Below are positions 520-23,168 of a stretch of 64,000 bases of DNA, piece by piece. How positions within the stretch are numbered: the stretch's first letter is position 1; each line of letters begins with the position of its first letter. The position numbers were made by a program, and so were the translations under genes. The notes under the pieces are model-generated. The model was not told the DNA's origin. It searched no databases and saw only the letters and a program-made list of their open reading frames with translations. The stretch is from Silvibacterium bohemicum (GTDB lineage Bacteria > Acidobacteriota > Terriglobia > Terriglobales > Acidobacteriaceae): NCBI RefSeq assembly GCF_001006305.1, contig NZ_LBHJ01000012.1, positions 718,231-782,230 on the forward strand. Direction: 5' to 3'.

Positions 520-3500
520 TCACTCATTGTCTTTCGTTCGCGGCGTATTTTGCGGAATTTCCACCTGCACGCGCGTGCCCTGTCCTGCTTTGCTGCTCAC
601 CGTCAGGCTTCCGCCCATCTGTTCGGCGCGTTCTTTCATTCCTGTGAGGCCATAGTGGCCCTCGCGTATTGACGGCGCATCGCCGGAGAATCCGCGGCCG
701 TCGTCTTCCACCGTCACTGCGATCCGGTTTTCTGCGTAGCGAAGCTCGATTTCGACGCGGCCGGGCTGTGCATGGCGAACCGCATTGGTCACTGCTTCCT
801 GCGCGATGCGCAGCAGCTGGTCTTCGGTCTGGCTTGGTAGCGGACGATAAGTTCCGGAGACATGCACTTCGGTTTTAATTGTGCTCGATGCGGTGACGCG
901 ATTTGCCATGTGGATCAGCTGGCTGGCGAAATCGCTTTCCTGAACGCCCTGCGAACGAAGCTCCCAGATCGCACGCCGCGCATCTTCGAGCCCGCTTCGC
1001 ACCAGTTCCTGGGCCTGGGTCAGGTGCCGCTGGGCTGTGTCAGGCGCGTTCGTGAGAAGACGCGACGCGACCTGCAATTGCACGGAGACGGCAACAAATC
1101 CCTGCGCCAGCGTGTCGTGAATTTCGCGAGCGATGCGATTGCGTTCTGTCAACACGACCTGAAAGCGCGACTCGACCAGGCGAAGACGCCAGAGATAAAT
1201 TCCATATCCAAGAAGTGCGATGGTGAGAACAAGAAGGAGATAAAACCAGACCGTCTGATGGAAGTATGGCTGCAGGCGCAGCGCTAGGGCCGCGGACTCC
1301 TGGCCCCAGACGCCGTCGTTGTTGCAGGCTTTCACTCGAAAGGTGTAATGGCCAGGCGGCAGGTTCGTATAGTAGGCCGCGCGTCGGGCGCCGGCATCGA
1401 CCCAGTCGCGATCGAAGCCTTCCAGCTTGTACTGGAATCGAACTTTCTGTGGAGCGACAAACGACAGAGCCGCATATTCGAAGGCCAAGCGGTGGGAACC
1501 GGGTGGAATTGTAACCGTAGCTGATCCTTTTTGTGGCTTGCCGTTCATGCTGACGTCATCCACGCTGAGCTGCTCGATGCTCACCAGCGGCGGCACGCGA
1601 TTCATTGCCAGATGCGCGGGATCGACGGTAGCCACGCCTTTGAGCGTTGCGAACCACAGGCTTCCATCCTGCAAACGCCACGCCGCGGGATGTCCTCCAC
1701 TGCTGGCTTCGCTGATCTTCATGCCGTCGGCCACGCCGAAGGTCGCGACGGAAACCGGGTCTCGGCTTCCTTCGTCGAGAGAGTGATTGAGCGCGCCGCG
1801 ATTGACGCGAACCACGCCGTCGCTGGAGCTCAGCCAGAGATTGCCATCGTCATCCTCGAGAATGCTGTAGAGATTGGCGGGAAGGCCGGCATTCTGTTGC
1901 GTGACCGGCTGAATTTTTCCGGCGCGGTAACGATTGAGCCCGCCGCCATTGCTTCCAATCCACAGCGTTCCTTCGGAGTCCTCATGCAGCGCGGTGATGA
2001 CGCGATCGGAGAGGCCGTCTTTCTCGGTGTAGTTCTGGAATGCGCCATGACTCCAGTGGGTGAGGCCGCCCAACGTGCCGATCCACAGCGAGCCGTCGTG
2101 TGCTTGGAGGATTGCGCCGACGAGGTCGCTGCCCAGTCCGTCGAGCGCGGTGTAGGTGGTGAATTTGTCATCCTTCCACTCGGAAAGCCCGCGCCGGGTT
2201 CCGATCCATCCCGTGCCCTGGTTGTCGAAATAGATGGAGCGCACGAAATCGTCTGCGAGACCGTCGGCAGAGGTGAAAGTGCTCACCTTGCCATCGTGAA
2301 TGCGGTTCAATCCATCCGGCGTGCCCAGCAGAAGATCGCCATTTGGCGCGGCCGCGATCGAAAGCACCACATTGCTGGAGAGGCCATTGGCCGTGCTCAG
2401 AGCGGTAAAGCCATTCTTGTCGCGGCGGTCAAGACCGCCGCCGCTGGTTCCCAGCCAGACCGTGCCCGAGCGATCCTGATACACCGCGCGAATGTGGTCG
2501 TCGGAGATGCCATCCTCCGCGGTGTAGGTGGTGAACTTACGGTCGCGCAGAATGTCCAGGCCGCCGGATTCGGTTCCCAGCCATAGGCTCCCCTCGCGAT
2601 CCTCATAAAGGGCAAGCACAAGATTGCTGGAGAAGCCGGTCCGCGGCGTGAGGGCTTCGATCTTGCCGGCGAAGAACCTGGCGATGCCGCCGGCAGTTCC
2701 GACCCACAGCGCGCCCTCGCGATCGCTCATGAGCAGATTGACGCGGTTCGAAGGCAGGCCGTCAGTCGTCGACCAATGCGAAAACTGCTTACCGTCATAG
2801 GAGAGCAGGCCCGCATCGGTGCCAATCCATAGTTGTCCCCGGCCATCGAAGGTCAGCGCGTGGATGTTCTTCTCCGCTGCAGTCCCCGTCTCATCCACTG
2901 AAGTGCAAGCAGTGTTGGGATGGCAGACTTCAATGCCGCTGGCGGTTCCGGCCCACGCGTTGCCATTGTGATCGACCGCCAATGCCTGGATGGAAACCCG
3001 CGGGCCGGCCGGTTGAAACTGACGCGGACCCGCAGCTGTGCGACGTAAGCCTTCCATGGTGCCAAGCCAGAGAGAGCCATCGGCTCCTTCAGCCATGGCG
3101 CTCTCCTCGTCCAAAGGAGGAAGACCGGCGATCGGGACGAACTGCCTGCCGTCGAAGACCGCAAGACCATCGGCGCTAAGGAGCCAGACATTCCCGCTGC
3201 GATCCTCGTGAAAGGACCAGACGGCACCGTTGTGTGATGTCTCGGGAAAGGTTTCGAAGGTGTGGTTCTTGTAGCGCGCGACTCCACTTGACGTGCCGAT
3301 CCAGAGCGTGCCGGAGCGGTCTTCCATCAGGCTCTCGATCAGGTCGCTGCCCAGTTGAGGCGTGTCGGCGCGGGTGAAGACGCGAAACTGGGTCGAGTCG
3401 AAGCGGACCAGCCCAGCTTCGGTTCCAATCCACAGAAAGCCATCTCGAGTCTGCAGCACGGCGTGAACCGTGTTCTGGGGAAGGCCGCTGTCGGTCTGCC

Positions 3501-3636
3501 AGGATTGATAGCCGTATTGCCTCAACCCTTGATGAGGATCGAGCGCGAGGCAACTGGCAGCGGAGCAGAACAGCCATATTCCAAGGAGAGCCGTCGTCCA
3601 GCTGCGCCGCCGGTTGAGTTGTCGCAGAGCATTCAC
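520..3636 (-). CDS. Sensor histidine kinase with periplasmic beta-propeller (Reg_prop/Y_Y_Y/HisKA_3/HATPase)
   Basis: The product is 1038 residues and begins at a GTG. Residues 1-32 form a signal peptide ending CLALDP. Residues about 40-680 are repeated propeller blades of the DRSGTLWIGTSSG type, followed by a Y_Y_Y domain (about 700-780, FQYKLEGFDRDWVDAG). One membrane helix lies near 800 (VWFYLLLVLTIALLGYGIYL). The HisKA_3 box IAREIHDTLAQGF holds the phosphorylatable His near residue 840, and the HATPase segment has EDDGRGF and GLTGM. This is the periplasmic-sensing architecture seen in many carbohydrate-responsive kinases; the ligand is unknown. It is transcribed ahead of the overlapping NarL-type regulator, so the two are a cognate pair. 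Confidence 0.95.
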   Translation of the reverse strand: MNALRQLNRRRSWTTALLGIWLFCSAASCLALDPHQGLRQYGYQSWQTDSGLPQNTVHAVLQTRDGFLWIGTEAGLVRFDSTQFRVFTRADTPQLGSDLIESLMEDRSGTLWIGTSSGVARYKNHTFETFPETSHNGAVWSFHEDRSGNVWLLSADGLAVFDGRQFVPIAGLPPLDEESAMAEGADGSLWLGTMEGLRRTAAGPRQFQPAGPRVSIQALAVDHNGNAWAGTASGIEVCHPNTACTSVDETGTAAEKNIHALTFDGRGQLWIGTDAGLLSYDGKQFSHWSTTDGLPSNRVNLLMSDREGALWVGTAGGIARFFAGKIEALTPRTGFSSNLVLALYEDREGSLWLGTESGGLDILRDRKFTTYTAEDGISDDHIRAVYQDRSGTVWLGTSGGGLDRRDKNGFTALSTANGLSSNVVLSIAAAPNGDLLLGTPDGLNRIHDGKVSTFTSADGLADDFVRSIYFDNQGTGWIGTRRGLSEWKDDKFTTYTALDGLGSDLVGAILQAHDGSLWIGTLGGLTHWSHGAFQNYTEKDGLSDRVITALHEDSEGTLWIGSNGGGLNRYRAGKIQPVTQQNAGLPANLYSILEDDDGNLWLSSSDGVVRVNRGALNHSLDEGSRDPVSVATFGVADGMKISEASSGGHPAAWRLQDGSLWFATLKGVATVDPAHLAMNRVPPLVSIEQLSVDDVSMNGKPQKGSATVTIPPGSHRLAFEYAALSFVAPQKVRFQYKLEGFDRDWVDAGARRAAYYTNLPPGHYTFRVKACNNDGVWGQESAALALRLQPYFHQTVWFYLLLVLTIALLGYGIYLWRLRLVESRFQVVLTERNRIAREIHDTLAQGFVAVSVQLQVASRLLTNAPDTAQRHLTQAQELVRSGLEDARRAIWELRSQGVQESDFASQLIHMANRVTASSTIKTEVHVSGTYRPLPSQTEDQLLRIAQEAVTNAVRHAQPGRVEIELRYAENRIAVTVEDDGRGFSGDAPSIREGHYGLTGMKERAEQMGGSLTVSSKAGQGTRVQVEIPQNTPRTKDNE

Positions 3637-3750
3637 GTCCTGCTCGGAATACTACACACCTGACGATGGAATGCAGTATCCATCAAACGGTGGAGGGTTT
3701 CGCCCCAATTGTATTCGGAGCGTATTTCCCCGGTTATGCACCAGAAGGAA

Positions 3751-4137
3751 TTACCTGGTCGGCGGAGCCGTGGTTGCTGCTGTGGCCGTCGCCGTTGTCG
3801 TCGGGGATTTGCCTTCGAGTATTTGTATCGCCTGGGAGACGACCGGGGCGAGGCGCTTGAAGTCGGCGATCAGGGTGAGGAACTGCTGGTAGGCCTGCGT
3901 GTCGGCCGCCAGGTTGAGGCCTTCGGCGGTGACTGCGGTGCTGGAGGCGGCGATAAGCGCCTCGACATCGGCGACCACCGAGGCCAGCCCGACGACGAAC
4001 GGCGTTTCGAGCGGCCTGGCAGCTTTCAAGATCTGCTCGATTTTGGCGGACAGGTGAACCGTGTCCTCGATGGCTCCAGCGAACCACTTGCCGAAATCCA
4101 CGATGCCGATGCCCAGTTTCTTGAAGATATTGGTCAT
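3751..4137 (-). CDS. Hypothetical small protein, Ala/Thr-rich C-terminus
   Basis: This is a 128-residue protein starting MTNIFKKLGIGIVDFGKWF. An ATG preceded by AAAGGAAGAG gives a good ribosome binding site. The sequence is mostly helical and amphipathic (IEQILKAARPLETPFVVGL, YQQFLTLIADFKRLAPVVSQ) and ends in a Thr/Ala-rich tail (TTTATATAATTAPPT). There are no Cys residues, no clear signal peptide and no recognised domain. It stands alone on its strand, and two hairpins lie just upstream (see 4171-4239). I do not recognise the family and assign no function. Confidence 0.7.
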   Translation of the reverse strand: MTNIFKKLGIGIVDFGKWFAGAIEDTVHLSAKIEQILKAARPLETPFVVGLASVVADVEALIAASSTAVTAEGLNLAADTQAYQQFLTLIADFKRLAPVVSQAIQILEGKSPTTTATATAATTAPPTR

Positions 4138-4170
4138 ACTCTTCCTTTTGCGGCGGATTTAGAGAAAAAG

Positions 4171-4239
4171 GGGCAGCGGCCGCGCCCGTTGCGGCGCGCA
4201 GCCCAAAAGAAAAGGGCACGGCCGGAGCCATGCCCTTTT
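4171..4239 (-). terminator. Two terminator-like hairpins upstream of the small hypothetical gene
   Basis: At 4210-4239, AAAAGGGCA...TGCCCTTTT forms a 12-bp stem with one mismatch and a CGGA loop. At 4171-4204, GGGC/GCCC arms enclose a GC-rich inner stem (GCGCC/GGCGC); on the minus strand this is followed by CCCCTTTTTCTC. Both lie in the leader of the minus-strand gene at 4137, between divergently oriented genes, so they may attenuate its transcript or end an unseen short RNA. The pairing is directly visible; the role is inferred. Confidence 0.55.
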
Positions 4240-4409
4240 GAAATTTCCCTATAGCTCAATTTTATCGAGTCCGAAGAAATACTCCGCCACATATCCGGCA
4301 CGCCATCTGTCTGGGCTCATGGCGGTTAGCGGCCTTCTGTCTGAGAGTGGGCTTGACAGGCTGGAGCAACCTCTTCGCCTGCCGGCGCGATCCACTGTGG
4401 GGAGAGCAA

Positions 4410-15418: not shown

Positions 15419-16213
15419 CTAGCTTTCGATGGCGGGGCGGTCTTCGGCGAGGTTTTCGAGGATGGCGTCGAACTCCGGAGTGCCTACCTGAACGTTTTGG
15501 AAGACCCATCCGGCGAGGAGCAGAACCGGCGCGGGGCCAGGGTCGGTGTTGCTGAGTGCGCCGAGCGTGGCGATAGTGATCTGCTGATCGGGCTGGGCTA
15601 CGCGCGAGATGGCGATGCAGGGGAAGCTTGGGGGCAGGCCGCTGGCGGTCCACTCGGCGGCGAGTGTGGTGAAGTCGCGGCCGGGCATATAGACGATGCG
15701 CGTAGGCTCATTGGGCTTGAGCGCCTCCGGAGCTTCGGAGGCGTGGTGGCCGGAGCTGAAGACGATGCTCGAAGAGGCGCGGCGGTCGGTGAGCGAGCAC
15801 TCGAGCGCGGCAGCGGCGGCGAAGGCTGTGGTGATCCCGGGAACAATTTCGAAGGGAATGCCGGCGGCGCGGAGGGCATCCATCTCTTCGGCGGCGCGGC
15901 CGAAGACCAGCGGGTCGCCGGCCTTGAGGCGTACAACCGAGAATCCCTGTGCCGCTTTTTCGACCATGAGCTGGTTGATCTCGGCCTGCGTAATTTTCTT
16001 CGTGCCGCAACGCTTGCCGACGTTGACGGTGAGGCAGCGCGGACCGGCGAGGGCAAGAATAGCGGGTGGCACCAGATCATCATTCAGAACGATGTCCGCG
16101 GATCCAAGAAGTCGCAGGGCCTTTACGGTGAGCAGATCGGGATCGCCGGGGCCGGCTCCGACTAGATAAACTACGCCTTTCCTGGCGCCGGACGGAGATT
16201 CGCCAGTCGTCAT
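15419..16213 (-). CDS. cobA: Uroporphyrinogen-III C-methyltransferase
   Basis: The protein is 264 residues from the ATG at 16213. VYLVGAGPGDPDLLTVKALR is the N-terminal SAM-binding loop of the precorrin methylase family, and VVRLKAGDPLVFGRAAEEMD and EIVPGITTAFAAAAALE are the second and third signatures. It methylates uroporphyrinogen III at C2 and C7 to give precorrin-2. The ATG overlaps the stop of the upstream precorrin-2 dehydrogenase by four bases, so the two siroheme steps are co-translated. Together they supply siroheme to the reductase upstream. The gene is often annotated as cysG or sumT. Confidence 0.93.
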   Translation of the reverse strand: MTTGESPSGARKGVVYLVGAGPGDPDLLTVKALRLLGSADIVLNDDLVPPAILALAGPRCLTVNVGKRCGTKKITQAEINQLMVEKAAQGFSVVRLKAGDPLVFGRAAEEMDALRAAGIPFEIVPGITTAFAAAAALECSLTDRRASSSIVFSSGHHASEAPEALKPNEPTRIVYMPGRDFTTLAAEWTASGLPPSFPCIAISRVAQPDQQITIATLGALSNTDPGPAPVLLLAGWVFQNVQVGTPEFDAILENLAEDRPAIES

Positions 16214-16854
16214 GCCAGAGCTTCCTTGACATGCGTGGTCTCGTGCCGGGCCTCGATGGCGAGATGTTGCGCCGGGCATGCCCTTGGATCGCAGACGTGA
16301 CGCTGCGCAAGCTGATGGAGCAGCAGCTTGCGGTCTTCGCCCGGTTCGTAGGCGGTAAGAATGTCGCGCCGCACCTGGCCGAGATCGTGCAGCCAGGGGC
16401 CGAGGTCGGTCGGAAGCTGCGCGTCGATCTCGCGGCGAAGATGCTGGGCGAGCGCGGGGCTTTCGCCGGCAGTAGAGATGGCGACCTGCAGATCGCCGCG
16501 GCTCACCACCGATCCAAAATAGAAGTCGCAGTGCGGCGGGTCGTCGACCGAGTTGCAGAGGATGTTGCGATCGACCGCCTCTTCGTAGATTGCCGCGTTC
16601 ACTTCAGGATCGTCAGTTGCGGCGATGACCAGGAAGGTGCGATCAAGATCGGATGGAGTGAATCTGCGTTGATCGAGCTCGATGTGGCCCTGCCGGGCGA
16701 GTGCCGCGATCTCCGGATGGACTCGCGGCGCGATCACGCGAAGCCGGGCTTCGGCGCTCAGCAGCGAAGGAATCTTCTGGAGCGCGATTTCACCCGCACC
16801 GACCAGCAGGCAAGGGCGGCGTGCTAGCTTCAGGAAAATGGGTAAAAGGCTCAT
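16210..16854 (-). CDS. Precorrin-2 dehydrogenase / sirohydrochlorin ferrochelatase (CysG N-terminal/Met8p type)
   Basis: The 214-residue protein starts MSLLPIFLKLARRPCLLVGA; LVGAGEIALQK is the GxGxxAxxK NAD-binding loop. FLVIAATDDPEVNAAIYEEA, CNSVDDPPHCDFYFGSVV and ISTAGESPALAQHLRREID match the CysG N-terminal half, with the DD of the active site. It oxidises precorrin-2 to sirohydrochlorin and probably inserts iron. GGAGG lies eight bases before the ATG. The gene sits downstream of the reductase gene and overlaps cobA, giving a siroheme supply operon. Confidence 0.92.
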   Translation of the reverse strand: MSLLPIFLKLARRPCLLVGAGEIALQKIPSLLSAEARLRVIAPRVHPEIAALARQGHIELDQRRFTPSDLDRTFLVIAATDDPEVNAAIYEEAVDRNILCNSVDDPPHCDFYFGSVVSRGDLQVAISTAGESPALAQHLRREIDAQLPTDLGPWLHDLGQVRRDILTAYEPGEDRKLLLHQLAQRHVCDPRACPAQHLAIEARHETTHVKEALA

Positions 16855-17080: not shown

Positions 17081-18787
17081 TCAGTCGCCGTCCATTGCTC
17101 TCGTTGCCAGGTCGCGCTCTACGGCTTCGAGAGATTCTCCAGCCAGCCGGGCGCGGATAGCCCCAGCGTCGTGGCGGCCAAAGTAGTTGCGCAGGTTTTC
17201 GCCGGGCGTGCGTTCGTTGAGATATGCGCCAAGCAGGCGGGTGAGCGCTGCCGGCACTTCGGTTGCGGGAGCGCGATAGCCGACCGGCCGGGCGATCGCG
17301 GCGTGCGCGCCGACCGCACCACCTACGCAGAAATAGTAGGCGTCGACCATCTTGCCTTCGTGCTTGATCTTTTTGCCTTCGAGGCCGATGTCGGCGATCC
17401 AGTGCTGGCCGCAGCTGTTGGGGCATCCCGTGACGTGGAGCTTGAGCTGCTGATCGAATTGCGGCAGGCTCTCCTGCAGCTCGTCGACCAGCCAGCGGGT
17501 GAAGCCCTTGGTCTCGCTGATGGCCAGCTTGCAGAATTCTGTTCCTGTGCAGGCAATAGCGCCGCGCCAGAAGGGTGTGCCGTCGACATGCAGACCGATG
17601 TGCTGCAGCTCCTTGGCCAGCTCGCCTGCGCGAGCGGTATCGATGTTCACGAAGATCAGGTTCTGCATGATGGTGGTGCGGAGCTGGCCGTTGCCAAAGC
17701 GTTCGGCGAGGTCGGCCGCTGCGGCGAGCTGGTCGCCGGTAAGGCGGCCGCGCAGGACTGAAGCGCCGACGTAGCTGAGGCCGGGCTGTTTCTGCTTGTG
17801 AATGCCGACGTGGTCGCGAAGAACGTCTTCGGGAAGCTTCTCGGGCGCGCCGGGCTCGAATTTGTAACCGAGACGGCGTTCTACTTCCGCGAGGAAGCTC
17901 TCCGCGGTCCAGTTCTCCTTCATGAAGAGGTACTTGATGCGGGCGCGATCGCGGCTTTCACGCAGCACTTCCTGATCGCGGAAGATGGCGGTGATGGCGC
18001 GAGCCACATCGACAGCCTGATTGGGACGGACGAACGCATCCAATTTCACAGCAAGGTGCGGCTCGTTGGAAAGGCCTCCACCGACGCGGACGGTATAGCC
18101 CACCTCGCCGCTGTTGTTCTTGATGGCAGTGAAAGCGACGTCGTTGATCTCGGGGTAGCTGCACCAGACGGGGCAGCCGGTAGCGGAGATCTTGAACTTG
18201 CGCGGCAGGTTATAGAACTCGGGGTTGGCGACCAGGGCGTGAGCCAGCTCGACAGCGAGCGACGAAGCATCGGCAATCTCTTCGTGGTCGATGCCGGCCA
18301 GCGGGCAGCCGGTGACGTTGCGCACAACGTCGCCGCAGGCTCCCTTGGGAGAGAGGCCGATCTTGGTCAGCTCGTCGACGATCTCGGGAATGTCTTCGAT
18401 AGTCAGCCAATGAAGCTGGATGTTCTGCCGGGTGGTGATGTCGGCGACATTGCGGGCATGCCTTTCGGTGATGTCCGCGATGGTGCGCAGCTGATGCGAT
18501 GTGAGCAGGCCGTTGGGCAGGCCGATGCGCATCATGAAGTATTCGGTGGCGAGACCTTCGCCGCCCTTGCCGCCCACGGCGCCGATTCCATCGCCCTGGG
18601 TGTAGATACCCCACCACTTGAAGTAGGCGTTGGCCCATTCCGGCACGACGCTGCTGCGGCCCTCGCGGGCAAAGGCGCGGACCTCATCGAAGACTTCCCA
18701 CGGGTTCTTCTCGCGCTTGAGGCGTTCGATGCGCTGGGCTTTGGTTTCCTTGGCGGCTTCTTTGGGTGGGGCTATGATCTGAGTCAT
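17081..18787 (-). CDS. nirA: Ferredoxin-type nitrite/sulfite reductase (siroheme, 4Fe-4S)
   Basis: The protein is 568 residues from the ATG at 18787. The frame extends to a GTG at 18820, but that codon lies inside a terminator stem and is rejected. Two reductase half-repeats are present, each with a ferredoxin-like segment (FMMRIGLPNGLLTSHQLR; LRGRLTGDQLAAAADLAERF). The siroheme/4Fe-4S ligands are visible as CTGTEFC and GCPNSCGQ in the C-terminal half. Such enzymes reduce nitrite to ammonia or sulfite to sulfide with six electrons; sequence alone does not separate the two here. Siroheme genes follow on the same strand, and a structured leader precedes the gene. Confidence 0.9.
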   Translation of the reverse strand: MTQIIAPPKEAAKETKAQRIERLKREKNPWEVFDEVRAFAREGRSSVVPEWANAYFKWWGIYTQGDGIGAVGGKGGEGLATEYFMMRIGLPNGLLTSHQLRTIADITERHARNVADITTRQNIQLHWLTIEDIPEIVDELTKIGLSPKGACGDVVRNVTGCPLAGIDHEEIADASSLAVELAHALVANPEFYNLPRKFKISATGCPVWCSYPEINDVAFTAIKNNSGEVGYTVRVGGGLSNEPHLAVKLDAFVRPNQAVDVARAITAIFRDQEVLRESRDRARIKYLFMKENWTAESFLAEVERRLGYKFEPGAPEKLPEDVLRDHVGIHKQKQPGLSYVGASVLRGRLTGDQLAAAADLAERFGNGQLRTTIMQNLIFVNIDTARAGELAKELQHIGLHVDGTPFWRGAIACTGTEFCKLAISETKGFTRWLVDELQESLPQFDQQLKLHVTGCPNSCGQHWIADIGLEGKKIKHEGKMVDAYYFCVGGAVGAHAAIARPVGYRAPATEVPAALTRLLGAYLNERTPGENLRNYFGRHDAGAIRARLAGESLEAVERDLATRAMDGD

Positions 18788-18810: not shown

Positions 18811-18833
18811 AAAAACCCACCGGCGATGGTGGG
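18811..18833 (-). terminator. Leader terminator before the nitrite/sulfite reductase gene
   Basis: On the minus strand CCCACC-ATCGCC-GGTGGG is followed by six T residues (18816-18833 plus 18810-18815). It ends about 23 bases before the ATG at 18787, so transcripts from the leader must read through it. That is the layout of a transcription attenuator. Confidence 0.75.
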
Positions 18834-18960
18834 CTGAGCGGGACGGTGTGTGCGATTAGGGTTCTGCTACGCGCACGTCCGGCTCAGCATGGGACAACAT
18901 GCTGGACAGCAAACTGCCGGAGTGGAATAAATCCGCACTCCCAACAGGATAAACGGTGAG
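18834..18960 (-). promoter_or_regulatory. Structured leader with short ORF upstream of nirA
   Basis: The minus-strand leader contains a 7-bp stem (18885-18904, CAGCATG/CATGCTG, 6-nt loop) and a 14-codon ORF (18856-18900, MLSHAEPDVRVAEP) that ends 22 bases before the terminator stem. The ORF has no clear ribosome binding site and no run of Cys or Met codons. A riboswitch or protein-bound leader is therefore as likely as ribosome-mediated attenuation. I recognise no named riboswitch class. Confidence 0.4.
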
Positions 18961-19068
18961 CCGGTCGGGGGCAAGCTAGGGCCACAGGTGAGTTTCATGG
19001 GTTTTGCAGCGGCTAGATTTCAGTGGGCTTTTGAGAATGCCGGCTTATGATGATTGCTGCGAGGCGCT

Positions 19069-20028
19069 ATGCAGCCGACTCCTTCCTCTACGCCCATTTC
19101 ATCGTCCATCGATTCCGGCCCGGTCTGGCCGGCTTTACCGCAATCGGCCTGGAGCGAGACCTGCGCTACTTTGCAGCTCTGGATGCAGATTGTGGGCAAG
19201 GTCAGGCTGGCGCTCACGCCGCCGATTAACCATACGTGGAACGTGACCCTGTATCCCACGGTGCGCGGCGTTACCACTTCGCCGATGGCCCATGGCACGC
19301 GCATTCTGCAGATAGACTTCGATTTCCTGGAGCACGCGCTCCTCCTGCAGACCAGCGATGGCGGCGTGCGCCGGATCGCGCTCCGGCCGATGACGGTGGC
19401 TGCATTCTACGGGGACGTGGTAGCCGCGTTGGCCGAGCTGGGCACTCCGGTGCACGTGTGGCCGGTGCCGGTGGAGATTGCAAAGCCCATCCCCTTCGAG
19501 CAGGATGAAACGCACAAGGCCTACGATCCTGAATATGCGCAGCGGTTTTGGCGGATTTTGCTGCAAACCAACCGTGTCTTCACTGTTTTCCGTGCGCGCT
19601 TCATCGGTAAGGTGAGCCCGATCCATCTTTTCTGGGGCGCATTGGACCTGGCTTGCAGCCGCTTCTCAGGCCGTACTGCGCCGGAGCATCCGAGCATGGC
19701 GGGATTGCCGGATCGCGTAACCCGCGACGCGTATTCGCACGAAGTCAGCAGCTGCGGTTTCTGGCCCGGTGCGCCGGGAATCGAACCGTTCTTTTACAGC
19801 TATGCCTACCCGGAGCCGCCCGGCTATCGGGAGTACCCCATCGCGCCAGCGTCGGGGGCGTTCGATGCGACGATGGGTGAGTTCGTGCTGCCGTACGAAG
19901 AAGTGCGCCGGTCCGCTGATCCGGATTCGGTGCTGCTGCAGTTTCTGCAGAAGACATATGAAGCAGCGGCGAACTGTGCGGGGTGGGATCGGACGGCGTT
20001 AGAAACGGCTGCCGGACGTAGCTCCTGA
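19069..20028 (+). CDS. DUF5996 family protein
   Basis: The product is 319 residues from the ATG at 19069 (GAGG precedes it); a TTG at 19054 is an alternative. The run WPALPQSAWSETCATLQLWM, QIVGKVRLALTPPINHTWNV and YPTVRGVTTSPMAHG matches DUF5996. HLFWGALDLACSRFSGRTAP and SHEVSSCGFWPG near the C-terminus hold conserved His, Trp and Cys residues. No signal peptide or membrane helix is seen. The family has no known function. The gene stands alone, divergent from nirA. Confidence 0.85.
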   Translation: MQPTPSSTPISSSIDSGPVWPALPQSAWSETCATLQLWMQIVGKVRLALTPPINHTWNVTLYPTVRGVTTSPMAHGTRILQIDFDFLEHALLLQTSDGGVRRIALRPMTVAAFYGDVVAALAELGTPVHVWPVPVEIAKPIPFEQDETHKAYDPEYAQRFWRILLQTNRVFTVFRARFIGKVSPIHLFWGALDLACSRFSGRTAPEHPSMAGLPDRVTRDAYSHEVSSCGFWPGAPGIEPFFYSYAYPEPPGYREYPIAPASGAFDATMGEFVLPYEEVRRSADPDSVLLQFLQKTYEAAANCAGWDRTALETAAGRSS

Positions 20029-20141: not shown

Positions 20142-23100
20142 TTAGAAGCTGAAGACGGCCTGGACAAAGATGCGGCGGCTGGCCGATCCCGAGGAGAAGA
20201 TCTGTCCGGCCAGAGCATTCGATTTGCCGAACTCGGGCGAGCCGAGAGTTCCCGTGGGCGGCGCAAGGTTGATGTCGTTGAAGAGGTTCAGCGCCTGCGC
20301 GTTGAAGGTCAGATTGTATTTGCGATTCAGGGCCTGCTGGCCGTTTCGGCCCCCGCCCGGTCCCCCCGGACCTCCCCGATTGCCGCTGAGGCCGCCAGGG
20401 CCTAAGCCGCCGCCGAGCCCACCGCCACCGCCGCCACGGCCACCACCGCCTCCTCCACCTCCGAAGCCGCCGCCTCCCGCAGGACCGCCGGCAACTTTGG
20501 GTCCGAAGGGAATGCTTTTGCTGGCGCGCAGATTGAAGGTAAAGAGTGTAGGCCCGTTCCCTATATTGACAGGGATGGGAGTCTCGCCTGCAGCCGGAGT
20601 GAGGTTGAAATTGCCGTAGGCTGTCGAGATGGTGTTGGTGTCACCGGCCTTGGCGAAGGATGGGCGGTCGTTGAAAAACGAATCTCCGTTCTGATCCTCA
20701 GGCAAGGTGACGTTGAAGGGTTTTCCGGACGCGACCACAACAAAGGGGCTAAAGCGCAGTCCCCAGCGCGTAGACCAGCTGCCGACCAGGAACATCTGGT
20801 TGCGCACATCAAAGGAGGCGCGGCCGTAATCCAGCTTCAGATCGGCGGAGTTGCTGGGATTGCTGTTGATGCCGCCGCTGTCGCTGTTGGCCCAGCTCGC
20901 CGTATAGAAGCCGAAGAGAGAGAGGCTGGGGCTGATGCGGGCATTGAAGTTGGCGATCAGCTGGTTCTGCTTGAAAACCGCTTCGGAGTAGTACTGATAG
21001 ATATTCGGAGCAGCCGGATCGTAGCCCAACACTTGCGGTGCGTTGGCATTGCGGGTGATGAATTGATGATTGCCGAGCGAGTTTAGGTAGGTGAGTGAGA
21101 TGGTCGATGTCTTAGACAGCTGGCGCTCGACTCCGATCGCGGCCTGCTGCGTGACGGGCGCGTGGAGGTTGGGTGCGATTTGGTAGACGGCCGTCTTGCT
21201 GCTGCTACTGCCTGCCTGGGAGCAGGATGTCAGATCATTTTGGGTGATACCGGTGGCCGAGTAGCAGGTTGGATTCTGAATGACAGCCTCAGCCTGCGGC
21301 GAATTTGCGTTGGCGTTGAGGCGCCTCTCCTGCAGGAGATTGGAGATAGCGAAGCGATCATAGAAAAATCCGTATCCGCCGCGGATGACGGTCTTGGGCT
21401 GCTTGCCGCCCTTGCCCACACCCCAGGCAAAGCTGAAGCGCGGAGCCCAGTCGTTCTTATCGCTGATGCTGGTCTGCGACTCCCAGCGCACGCCATAGCT
21501 GAGGGTCAGATTCTGGCGGGCGCGCCAGTCATCCTGGTAGAAGAGGCCGACATCGGTGAGGCCCACTTTGGTGGAGGGATTGCCGTAGACGAGATTCAAT
21601 TGGCTGGGACCGCCGCCGGCGGCGTGAATCTGCGCCCAGCTCTGGCCGGTGCCGAGTCCCTGGATGGTGCTGCCGTAGGCCTGAGCGGGCGAAGAGGAGA
21701 CGCAGCCGGTCTCTCCTGCGCTGCACCTGTTGCCGCCGAAGGTGAAGAGGCCGTTGAAGCTGGAGTTCGCGGTATTGGCGTCGCGTGCGAAGCGCAGACG
21801 GCCGCCGACATTGATGGAGTGGGTCTTGAGCGCGATCTCGGTCAGGTTCTGCAGCTCGTAGTGGAGTGAGTGGTCTTTGATGATCTGGTCGCTGTTGCCG
21901 CCGAAGGTTTCCAGGCCGGAAACCTGCACCTGCGGAGTGAGGGTCGACGGAGTTTCGCTGGAGAAATCGCGCAGGAACTGAAAGCGGGTTTCGTTGATGA
22001 CCTTGTCGCTGATGATCTGGGTGTCGCTGATCTGGACGGTGTGCTCGGTGGAGTCCTGCTTGTAGGCCTGATCGCGCAGTGAAAACTGGCCAACACCCTG
22101 GTTCTGCTCGCCGTTGTCGTAATACTGGTACCGGACACTTAACGTGTTCTTCGCGCCGATGGCCAGATCGATGCGCGGGCTGATGTTGGTGCGGGTGCGG
22201 GGCGCGACCAGCGCATCGTTGAAGCCTACAGTGCCGTAGTCGGCTGGATTGGTGAAGATGCCGTTGGCGAAATCGCCGTTCACCTCGCCGGCCAGGCGAA
22301 ACGCGCTGACGATGGCGTCGTCTTGAATAATGCGATGTTCGGCGCTGACGAAGAACGACGCGTTTTTGCTTATCGGCCCGTTCACCGTGCCGTTGTATTG
22401 ATAGCTGTAGTAGTCCGGGATGTTTTTTGAAAAGGGATTGCCGGTATTCAGCTGCGAGGGATCGCCCTGAATGAAGAACTGACCGTGCAGCTTGTCTGTG
22501 CCGGGCTTGGTGAGGATCTCAATGCGTCCGTAGCCTAGCTTGTCGTATTCGGCGGAGAAGGGATTCTGGTTGATGCGAATTTCACGGATGGCGGATTTCG
22601 GCGGAAGCTGTCCGGCGGTAAAGCCGTCGATATAAATTTGCCCGCCATTTGGACCCGCTCCAGGGCCGGCGAGCGCACTCAGTTCGTTCTGCAGCTCATC
22701 GGGATCGTCGGAGAGCGCATCGAGATCTTTGCCTTTGATGACCAGGCTGTTGGCATTGCTGGTGGGATCGACGCTGACCGTCGGCGTGTCTTCGTTGACC
22801 ACCACCTGCTGCTTCTCGACCTCGATTTGCAGGGCGATGTCGAATTGCTTGCTCTGTCCGGAGGCTAGAACGACGGCCTTCGAACTCGACTGTGCGAAAC
22901 CCTGCGCTCCCGCAAGGACGATGTAGGTTCCGGCAGGCAATCCCTTGGTCTGATAGGCGCCCGAGGAATCTGATGTCGCAGTCGCGATGGTGTGGCCGTC
23001 GGGCGTGGTGATGCTCACCGTGGCATTGGGAATTACCGCGCCGCTGGGATCGGTGACCGTACCGCGAAGGATGCCATTTCCGGCCTGCGCCCACAGGGTC

Positions 23101-23168
23101 GGGGCGAGCGCGAGAAGAAACATAGCCAGGCAGAGACACAAAGAGCGAAGGATGAGCTTGTAAGTCAC
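20142..23168 (-). CDS. Oar-like TonB-dependent receptor with Gly-rich insertion
   Basis: This 1008-residue protein starts at a GTG with GGGAG upstream. A signal peptide (about 1-28, ending LWAQAG) is followed by a carboxypeptidase regulatory-like domain (GILRGTVTDPSGAVIPNATV, about 30-120) and a plug-like segment (about 140-230, GPNGGQIYIDGF). A large barrel follows, with many alternating aromatic strands and the terminal Phe (FVQAVFSF). Near residue 900 about 50 residues are almost all Gly with Arg and Pro, just before NLTFNAQALNLFNDINLAPP. Oar-type receptors are abundant in Acidobacteriota and their ligands are mostly unknown. A secreted DUF5666-like gene lies upstream on the same strand. 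Confidence 0.92.
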   Translation of the reverse strand: MTYKLILRSLCLCLAMFLLALAPTLWAQAGNGILRGTVTDPSGAVIPNATVSITTPDGHTIATATSDSSGAYQTKGLPAGTYIVLAGAQGFAQSSSKAVVLASGQSKQFDIALQIEVEKQQVVVNEDTPTVSVDPTSNANSLVIKGKDLDALSDDPDELQNELSALAGPGAGPNGGQIYIDGFTAGQLPPKSAIREIRINQNPFSAEYDKLGYGRIEILTKPGTDKLHGQFFIQGDPSQLNTGNPFSKNIPDYYSYQYNGTVNGPISKNASFFVSAEHRIIQDDAIVSAFRLAGEVNGDFANGIFTNPADYGTVGFNDALVAPRTRTNISPRIDLAIGAKNTLSVRYQYYDNGEQNQGVGQFSLRDQAYKQDSTEHTVQISDTQIISDKVINETRFQFLRDFSSETPSTLTPQVQVSGLETFGGNSDQIIKDHSLHYELQNLTEIALKTHSINVGGRLRFARDANTANSSFNGLFTFGGNRCSAGETGCVSSSPAQAYGSTIQGLGTGQSWAQIHAAGGGPSQLNLVYGNPSTKVGLTDVGLFYQDDWRARQNLTLSYGVRWESQTSISDKNDWAPRFSFAWGVGKGGKQPKTVIRGGYGFFYDRFAISNLLQERRLNANANSPQAEAVIQNPTCYSATGITQNDLTSCSQAGSSSSKTAVYQIAPNLHAPVTQQAAIGVERQLSKTSTISLTYLNSLGNHQFITRNANAPQVLGYDPAAPNIYQYYSEAVFKQNQLIANFNARISPSLSLFGFYTASWANSDSGGINSNPSNSADLKLDYGRASFDVRNQMFLVGSWSTRWGLRFSPFVVVASGKPFNVTLPEDQNGDSFFNDRPSFAKAGDTNTISTAYGNFNLTPAAGETPIPVNIGNGPTLFTFNLRASKSIPFGPKVAGGPAGGGGFGGGGGGGGRGGGGGGLGGGLGPGGLSGNRGGPGGPGGGRNGQQALNRKYNLTFNAQALNLFNDINLAPPTGTLGSPEFGKSNALAGQIFSSGSASRRIFVQAVFSF

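Follow-up and report, generated by a model that had tools for sequence, protein, structure and literature searches.

The leader of the siroheme-dependent reductase gene of Silvibacterium bohemicum is best read as a ribosome-mediated transcription attenuator that would respond to the supply of Cys-tRNA and is built like the attenuators of trp and his operons, a reading to which we assign a probability of about 0.86. The leader lies in a window of 64,000 nucleotides, by which we mean the whole stretch of DNA analysed, and precedes a gene whose product, judged from its sequence, fits the name assimilatory sulfite reductase better than that of nitrite reductase. Across the sequences that we compared, the leaders combine a Cys-rich upstream ORF (uORF), a uORF start adjacent to a promoter-like site and a terminator, and a leader of this kind also precedes cysD. 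Two features that mark attenuators recur among orthologues: a short uORF rich in codons for the pathway end product precedes 86 of 108 genes, and a terminator stands between uORF and gene in 78 of these 86. We infer translation of the uORF, ribosome stalling, the switch itself and its direction. The elements of the leader and of the operon that follows it are listed here in the order of transcription.

18969..18974, minus strand: -35-like box TTGCCC, belonging to the best sigma70-type promoter upstream of the Cys run, a consensus match only
18946..18951, minus strand: -10-like box TATCCT, after a 17-nt spacer and 7 nt before the uORF start, predicted by consensus
18867..18938, minus strand: Cys-rich leader ORF MRIYSTPAVCCPACCPMLSRTCA, GTG start at 18938, TAG stop at 18869-18867, predicted to be leaderless
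18885..18904, minus strand: putative protector-type hairpin CAGCATG/CATGCTG, spanning the final codons of the Cys run and overlapping region 2 (folds, -8.5 kcal/mol)
18876..18888, minus strand: region 2, GCTGAGCcGGACG, 5' side of the predicted antiterminator, pairing with region 3
18833..18845, minus strand: region 3, CGTCCcGCTCAGC, 3' side of the predicted antiterminator, from sequence and folds
18814..18835, minus strand: intrinsic terminator hairpin AGCCCACC-AUCGCC-GGTGGGTT, -12.9 kcal/mol alone
18815-18810, minus strand: terminator U-tract of six T, separated by 22 nt from the ATG at 18787
17084..18787, minus strand: probable assimilatory sulfite reductase, NirA/SirA-like, siroheme [4Fe-4S], 568 aa, ATG start at 18787
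16210..16854, minus strand: second gene, siroheme synthase N-terminal-domain protein (CysG N-terminal type)
15419..16279, minus strand: third gene, uroporphyrinogen-III C-methyltransferase of the siroheme pathway

The siroheme-making genes thus lie downstream of the reductase, whose closest solved structure is that of Mycobacterium tuberculosis NirA (1zj8), which we take to be a sulfite reductase with a Tyr69-Cys161 bond. Counted along the alignment (offset 11), the equivalents of these residues in the window protein are Y62 and C151; both are invariant in 14 orthologues, and the nitrite reductase 3b0l carries Gly at the position aligned with C151. The score of the window reductase lies below the curated NirA-family cut-off (400.9 against 523). 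Among relatives, locus L091 holds a single 958-aa open frame (1524-4400) that joins sulfate adenylyltransferase to a sulfite reductase homologue, locus L035 has the gene row cysN-cysH and then the reductase, and genome G014 has a cysH match on the reductase strand, about 1.5 kb downstream of that gene. We rejected a nitrite reductase in favour of sulfite reductase on the structure match and its aligned residues, the L091 fusion, the L035 gene row and the separate NirA paralogue of genome G001 described below. Of the name "nitrite/sulfite reductase" in the original prediction, the siroheme reductase survives, and assimilatory sulfite reductase is the better label than nitrite reductase. Its placement of the gene start stands: since the upstream GTG, at 18820, is itself part of the terminator, the gene most sensibly begins at 18787.

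A separate paralogue in genome G001 scores above the NirA cut-off (783.6), and its neighbours, a CysJ-like flavoprotein, a HemD-GAF-ANTAR fusion (L269, 4587-6251) and an MFS transporter, make a neighbourhood that looks like nitrate assimilation. Two further genomes, G002 and G025, have ANTAR matches at most 5 kb from a second NirA-type match. On the other side of the window leader, the divergent neighbour at 19054-20028 (plus strand) encodes a DUF5996 protein, and 20142-23168 (minus strand) encodes a large beta-barrel protein of the outer membrane that contains a carboxypeptidase-regulatory-like domain and a long stretch rich in Gly.

Within the leader, the CCCACC stem arm (18833-18828), AUCGCC loop (18827-18822), GGTGGG arm (18821-18816) and six T residues (18815-18810) described earlier are all present on the minus strand, as is the separate 7-bp stem CAGCATG/CATGCTG (18904-18898/18891-18885). 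The 14-codon ORF MLSHAEPDVRVAEP (18900-18856) that had been put forward as the leader ORF also exists, but it is another frame that is conserved. This conserved frame carries the pattern CC-PA-CC and one more Cys, contrary to the earlier statement that the ORF has no Cys run, and places the Cys codons for predicted stalling at 18911-18894. The view that metabolite or protein sensing is as likely as stalling rested on the wrong frame, whereas it is a Cys-rich ORF that is conserved. The element also begins further upstream than the originally marked interval of 18811-18960, with promoter-like boxes at 18974-18946 and a transcription start that we predict at or next to the GTG at 18938. Of 200 shuffles of the 100-nt leader, 199 fold less well than the real sequence (z -3.6). 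Over 4 kb, terminator-like sites occur at chance level (4 found, 3.7 expected), so the case for the window leader rests on comparison. A scan of the S. bohemicum genome for CC-x-x-CC codons gave 75 hits, of which 18 rows fell in short closed ORFs (16 distinct ORFs), and under the stricter rules the window leader alone passed both the promoter and the terminator scan. No similar sequence was found when the window DNA was compared with plasmid records.

We assembled 108 orthologous leaders, 30 from a genome search and 78 from named loci. The former are the best 30 matching places with loci in 61 genomes covering the own genome, genus, family and order; of 80 named loci, 78 were usable, and L056 and L088 were dropped because their matches begin at the first base. 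A Cys uORF was scored where the densest run in any short upstream ORF held at least three Cys in 8 codons. By this rule 86 of 108 leaders have a Cys uORF, compared with 12 of 108 on the reverse strand and with 10.7% of dinucleotide shuffles (n=2160); at least four Cys are reached in 60 of the 86, in one leader on the reverse strand and in 1% of the shuffles. Collapsing near-identical leaders (90% alike or more across 200 nt) left the proportion at 84 of 106. The genome-search loci all carry the uORF (30/30, the window's own included). Sorted by record title, named loci from Acidobacteria or a member group carry it in 55 of 62 cases, and those with other titles, 11 of them Rokubacteria, in one of 16, the one being a metagenome-assembled genome titled Opitutia. 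Among the seven Acidobacteriota-titled loci without a Cys uORF under the three-in-eight rule are L060, which has a CC uORF, L035 with its cysN-cysH-reductase row, and L091 with its fusion protein. L057, which bears another title, has a CC uORF with a hairpin by our own reading and a terminator score of 20.2. Common to the groups are the Cys frame and the layout; primary sequence and stems vary by group, and in loci L001 to L006 the Cys-rich peptide is partly conserved, ending in CCxxLSRxC or similar.

The same rule also fires elsewhere. Windows of at least three Cys precede 6 of 12 NirA-type paralogues, by rank 2 of 6 in the same family (L272, L280), 4 of 4 in the same order (L276-L279) and 0 of 2 in the same class (L275, L281). 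The order-level paralogues have Cys windows of up to 5 and short upstream ORFs with CC-containing runs, and may themselves be sulfite reductases with their own leaders. In genome G043 this paralogue lies about 4 kb from cysD. Among 16 of the 30 cysK-type loci fetched, four (L145, L147, L148, L151) have a window of three, none has a higher count, and no clear leader was seen. A window of three by itself is therefore weak and not specific, and the claim of a Cys leader rests on the uORF in combination with its position, the terminator and codon bias.

To locate the uORFs relative to transcription, the best sigma70-type promoter was sought upstream of the Cys run in the 86 uORFs, one of which had none. 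The first in-frame ATG or GTG falls 4-10 nt past the -10 box in 71 of 85 leaders, with 51 at 6 or 7 nt; in the two other frames a start falls 4-10 nt after the box in 4 of 170, a comparison in which selection of uORFs for having a start codon favours the own frame somewhat, though not the 4-10 nt distance. These uORFs are accordingly spaced like leaderless ones, and we predict that they are leaderless. Cys codons in the uORF runs are UGU in 266 and UGC in 102 of 368 cases. In 40 downstream genes, comprising the 30 genome-search genes and 10 of the 80 named-locus genes, they are UGU in 39 and UGC in 380 of 419. Attenuators elsewhere use rare codons as regulatory codons, and the use in Cys runs of UGU, which is rare in the genes, would fit such a role.

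Between uORF and gene, a strong terminator (score of at least 15) is found in 78 of 86 leaders compared with 3.0% of shuffles; the window terminator scores 18.2, higher than any of 20 shuffles of the same region. This stricter score replaced a looser rule that also fired in some loci without a uORF. Of the 22 loci that lack the Cys uORF, L057, L060, L094, L100 and L107 score at least 20 and L096 scores 18.7, so hairpins of this kind also occur where that uORF is absent. We aligned 21 of the 84 leaders that have both uORF and hairpin, picked by terminator sequence. The terminator helix is paired in 97.4% of cells of this alignment and four of its pairs have changed on both sides, a level of compensatory change reached by 0 of 500 shuffles; the AUCGCC hexaloop is not conserved within the genus. 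A small GCTGA/TCGGC-type hairpin that encloses the uORF stop codon was also observed in these leaders (84.8% of cells paired; alignment A2, columns 105-143, for example L019:3176-3343, minus strand). This comparison of orthologous leaders gives good support to the central earlier proposal, that the siroheme reductase gene has a terminator-controlled leader. Conserved structure among orthologues, on which that proposal had been made to depend, is seen for the terminator; the antiterminator given here is a candidate.

In many leaders, the RNA that follows the Cys codons is able to base-pair with the 5' side of the terminator. The energy of this duplex between regions 2 and 3 beats the shuffle median in 79 of 84 leaders and reaches p<0.05 in 29 of 84, where about 4 are expected; for the window p is 0.005, with 1 of 200 shuffles pairing as well. 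The helix, with a small inner hairpin, pairs in 85.4% of cells of the 21-leader alignment and in no more than 46.5% when shifted by as many as 3 columns. Covariation in the helix showed no excess over shuffles in the 21-leader alignment or in the window leader with five leaders of its genus. The window antiterminator GCTGAGCcGGACG/CGTCCcGCTCAGC overlaps the terminator by only three bases, AGC (18835-18833), and without this foot the terminator is a 5-bp hairpin of -7.0 kcal/mol compared with -12.9; with so few shared bases and such a hairpin left, antitermination in the window is not assured.

We modelled the switch in two ways. At equilibrium, with the ribosome on Cys or stop codons and the RNA extending through the terminator, the terminator wins at most ribosome positions; its value at the stop exceeds that at the lowest stall by more than 0.1 in 25 of 84 leaders, with the reverse in 2. 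Because the terminator wins at equilibrium, the switch would have to be kinetic. In a co-transcriptional model, the RNA was cut before the last terminator arm and a stall was represented by a ribosome on the first Cys of the run. Occupancy of the first terminator arm is then 0.63 at the stall compared with 0.35 at the stop, being higher at the stall by more than 0.1 in 72 of 84 leaders and lower in 5. Shuffles give 0.56 at the stall, 37 of 84 leaders lying above their shuffles by more than 0.1 and 9 below. The window leader, at 0.40, does no better than its own shuffles (0.39). Taken together with the pairing results, these models leave the attenuator switch plausible across the leaders generally; in the window's own genus it is only predicted.

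On this basis we propose that transcription would start at or next to the GTG and that the leader ORF would be translated as a leaderless message. With ample cysteine, the ribosome would pass the Cys codons, reach the UAG at 18869-18867 and cover region 2 (18888-18876), leaving region 3 free, such that the terminator (18835-18814) could form and transcription would end before the sulfite reductase-siroheme operon. When Cys-tRNA runs short, the ribosome would stall at the Cys codons (18911-18894) and hold open the hairpin at 18904-18885, whereupon regions 2 and 3 would pair, the foot of the terminator would be captured and polymerase would read through.

A second operon is preceded by a leader of the same type. 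The cysD gene of S. bohemicum (C4:239596) has a leader (L131, 238096-241974 of the same contig, at about 1190-1360) in which TTGACA and a weak -10 box lie upstream of the leaderless-type Cys uORF MQFVMPVPSCCQLHSCCRECCVPARL, itself followed by a hairpin with a U-tract; this leader failed the stricter promoter and terminator rules and passed both under looser ones. At least three Cys in 8 codons are found before cysD in 8 of 9 members of the genus, the ninth (G006) having 2, in 6 of 8 from the rest of the family and in 3 of 11 outside it, although one of these three, L187, looks to us like the tail of a gene upstream. In relatives, six cysD leaders (L134, L136, L174, L177, L181, L182) have a Cys-rich uORF and no U-tract hairpin in our scan, and may be controlled at translation or by Rho. 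The sulfate permease family TIGR00969 gave no match over its cut-off in 8 genomes. We raise, tentatively and as less probable than its opposite, the broader idea that Acidobacteriota relatives run a cysteine regulon, made up of the sulfite reductase-siroheme and cysD operons, by leaderless Cys leaders with terminators, partly with antiterminators that capture only the terminator foot and with some cysD leaders lacking a terminator, in which one leader type would give transcriptional control in some genomes and control at another level in sister genomes.

The six hairpin-less cysD leaders speak for an alternative, like that proposed for mycobacterial cys leaders, in which the Cys uORF would act on the downstream gene through translation or Rho-dependent termination and the hairpin with its U-tract would be secondary. 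Cys leader ORFs that precede actinobacterial cys operons without terminators, in the portion of PMC1262725 available, lend this account further weight. We nonetheless consider it unlikely for the sulfite reductase gene, given the strong terminators in 78 of 86 leaders and the compensatory changes in the aligned subset. In the window, moreover, the start-codon region lies past the terminator, and the fold pairs few of its bases, with bases near the uORF start. That the Cys-rich nascent peptide itself senses sulfide, redox state, a metal or siroheme in or near the ribosome might be suggested by the partly conserved peptide of L001 to L006, but across loci it is mainly Cys richness that is kept, with number, spacing and surroundings varying, and the bias to UGU points to decoding; we regard such sensing as very improbable.

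Equally little probability attaches to an aptamer (for SAM, SAH, siroheme or sulfide) or other metabolite-sensing RNA that would control the terminator with the uORF incidental. The strong structure of the leader speaks for it, yet the groups share the Cys frame and layout and differ in primary sequence and stems, and Rfam scans gave no match, either for the window at gathering thresholds or for the 201-nt leader at E up to 1. The earlier remark that the leader belongs to no known class is borne out as regards Rfam families, but not as regards the device, which is of a recognisable kind, the leader-peptide attenuator. The least credible reading of all makes the terminator hairpin the target of a NasR/NasT-type ANTAR-protein antiterminator. 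Such systems control nitrate and nitrite assimilation genes, and the window hexaloop AUCGCC fits the A1-G4 pattern of ANTAR targets; against this, the S. bohemicum genome has no ANTAR match, loops vary within the genus, and the ANTAR protein of G001 is the HemD-GAF-ANTAR fusion adjoining the other NirA paralogue. We rejected this candidate on the absent ANTAR match and the varying loops.

If the attenuator reading is true, it shows a way in which sulfate assimilation is controlled within a large phylum of soil bacteria, re-labels an enzyme read as nirA as a sulfite reductase, and yields a plain search rule for other cysteine-controlled operons. It also suggests that leaderless Cys leader peptides have arisen in, or spread to, bacteria other than Actinobacteria, here coupled to an intrinsic terminator. 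No Cys attenuator in Acidobacteria was recognised among the literature matches listed, which comprised titles and the start of abstracts, most subscription papers lying outside the coverage. In the excerpts available, a 2010 study states that hardly any of the attenuators predicted in Acidobacteria had a function associated with them (PMC2965389), and another mentions Acidobacteria for leader-gene spacing, the word cysteine being absent from the main text (PMC4833913).

Several known systems invite comparison. Classical trp, his, leu and thr attenuators have a leader ORF with regulatory codons, competing helices and a terminator before a biosynthetic operon. The present leaders resemble them in regulatory codons, competing helices, a terminator ahead of the operon and rare codons, and differ in that the amino acid is cysteine, the uORF is predicted to be leaderless, the genes are those of sulfate assimilation, and, in the window, antiterminator and terminator overlap by three bases. 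Cys leader peptides were predicted in 2005 for cys operons of Mycobacterium and Propionibacterium and for cbs of Bifidobacterium (Seliverstov et al., PMC1262725), with no conserved terminator found in the Actinobacteria according to the available text. For mycobacteria, leaderless polycysteine small ORFs have been described (Canestrari et al. 2020, doi 10.1111/mmi.14498), cysteine-responsive Cys-rich small ORFs are cited in the accessible parts of PMC13236596 and PMC9094748, and the control exerted in M. smegmatis is described in the former as translation attenuation. As far as these partial sources go, the leaders described here share with actinobacterial and mycobacterial ones a short Cys-rich ORF upstream of sulfur-assimilation genes and, with the polycysteine small ORFs, a leaderless start (here predicted from promoter consensus) and an expected cysteine response. 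They differ from the mycobacterial leaders in the intrinsic terminator after the uORF and in the phylum, Acidobacteriota, and because the terminator is present we do not assign the window leader to the mycobacterial type of polycysteine attenuator. Streptomyces lividans leuL2, trpL1 and ilvL are leaderless leader peptides with terminators (PMC8079986); in the portion of that report available, eight leaders are given, none is called a Cys leader, and the metL peptide has three Cys. These Streptomyces leaders serve other amino acids in another phylum, and, on that same portion, share with ours a leaderless leader ORF followed by hairpins and a U-tract.
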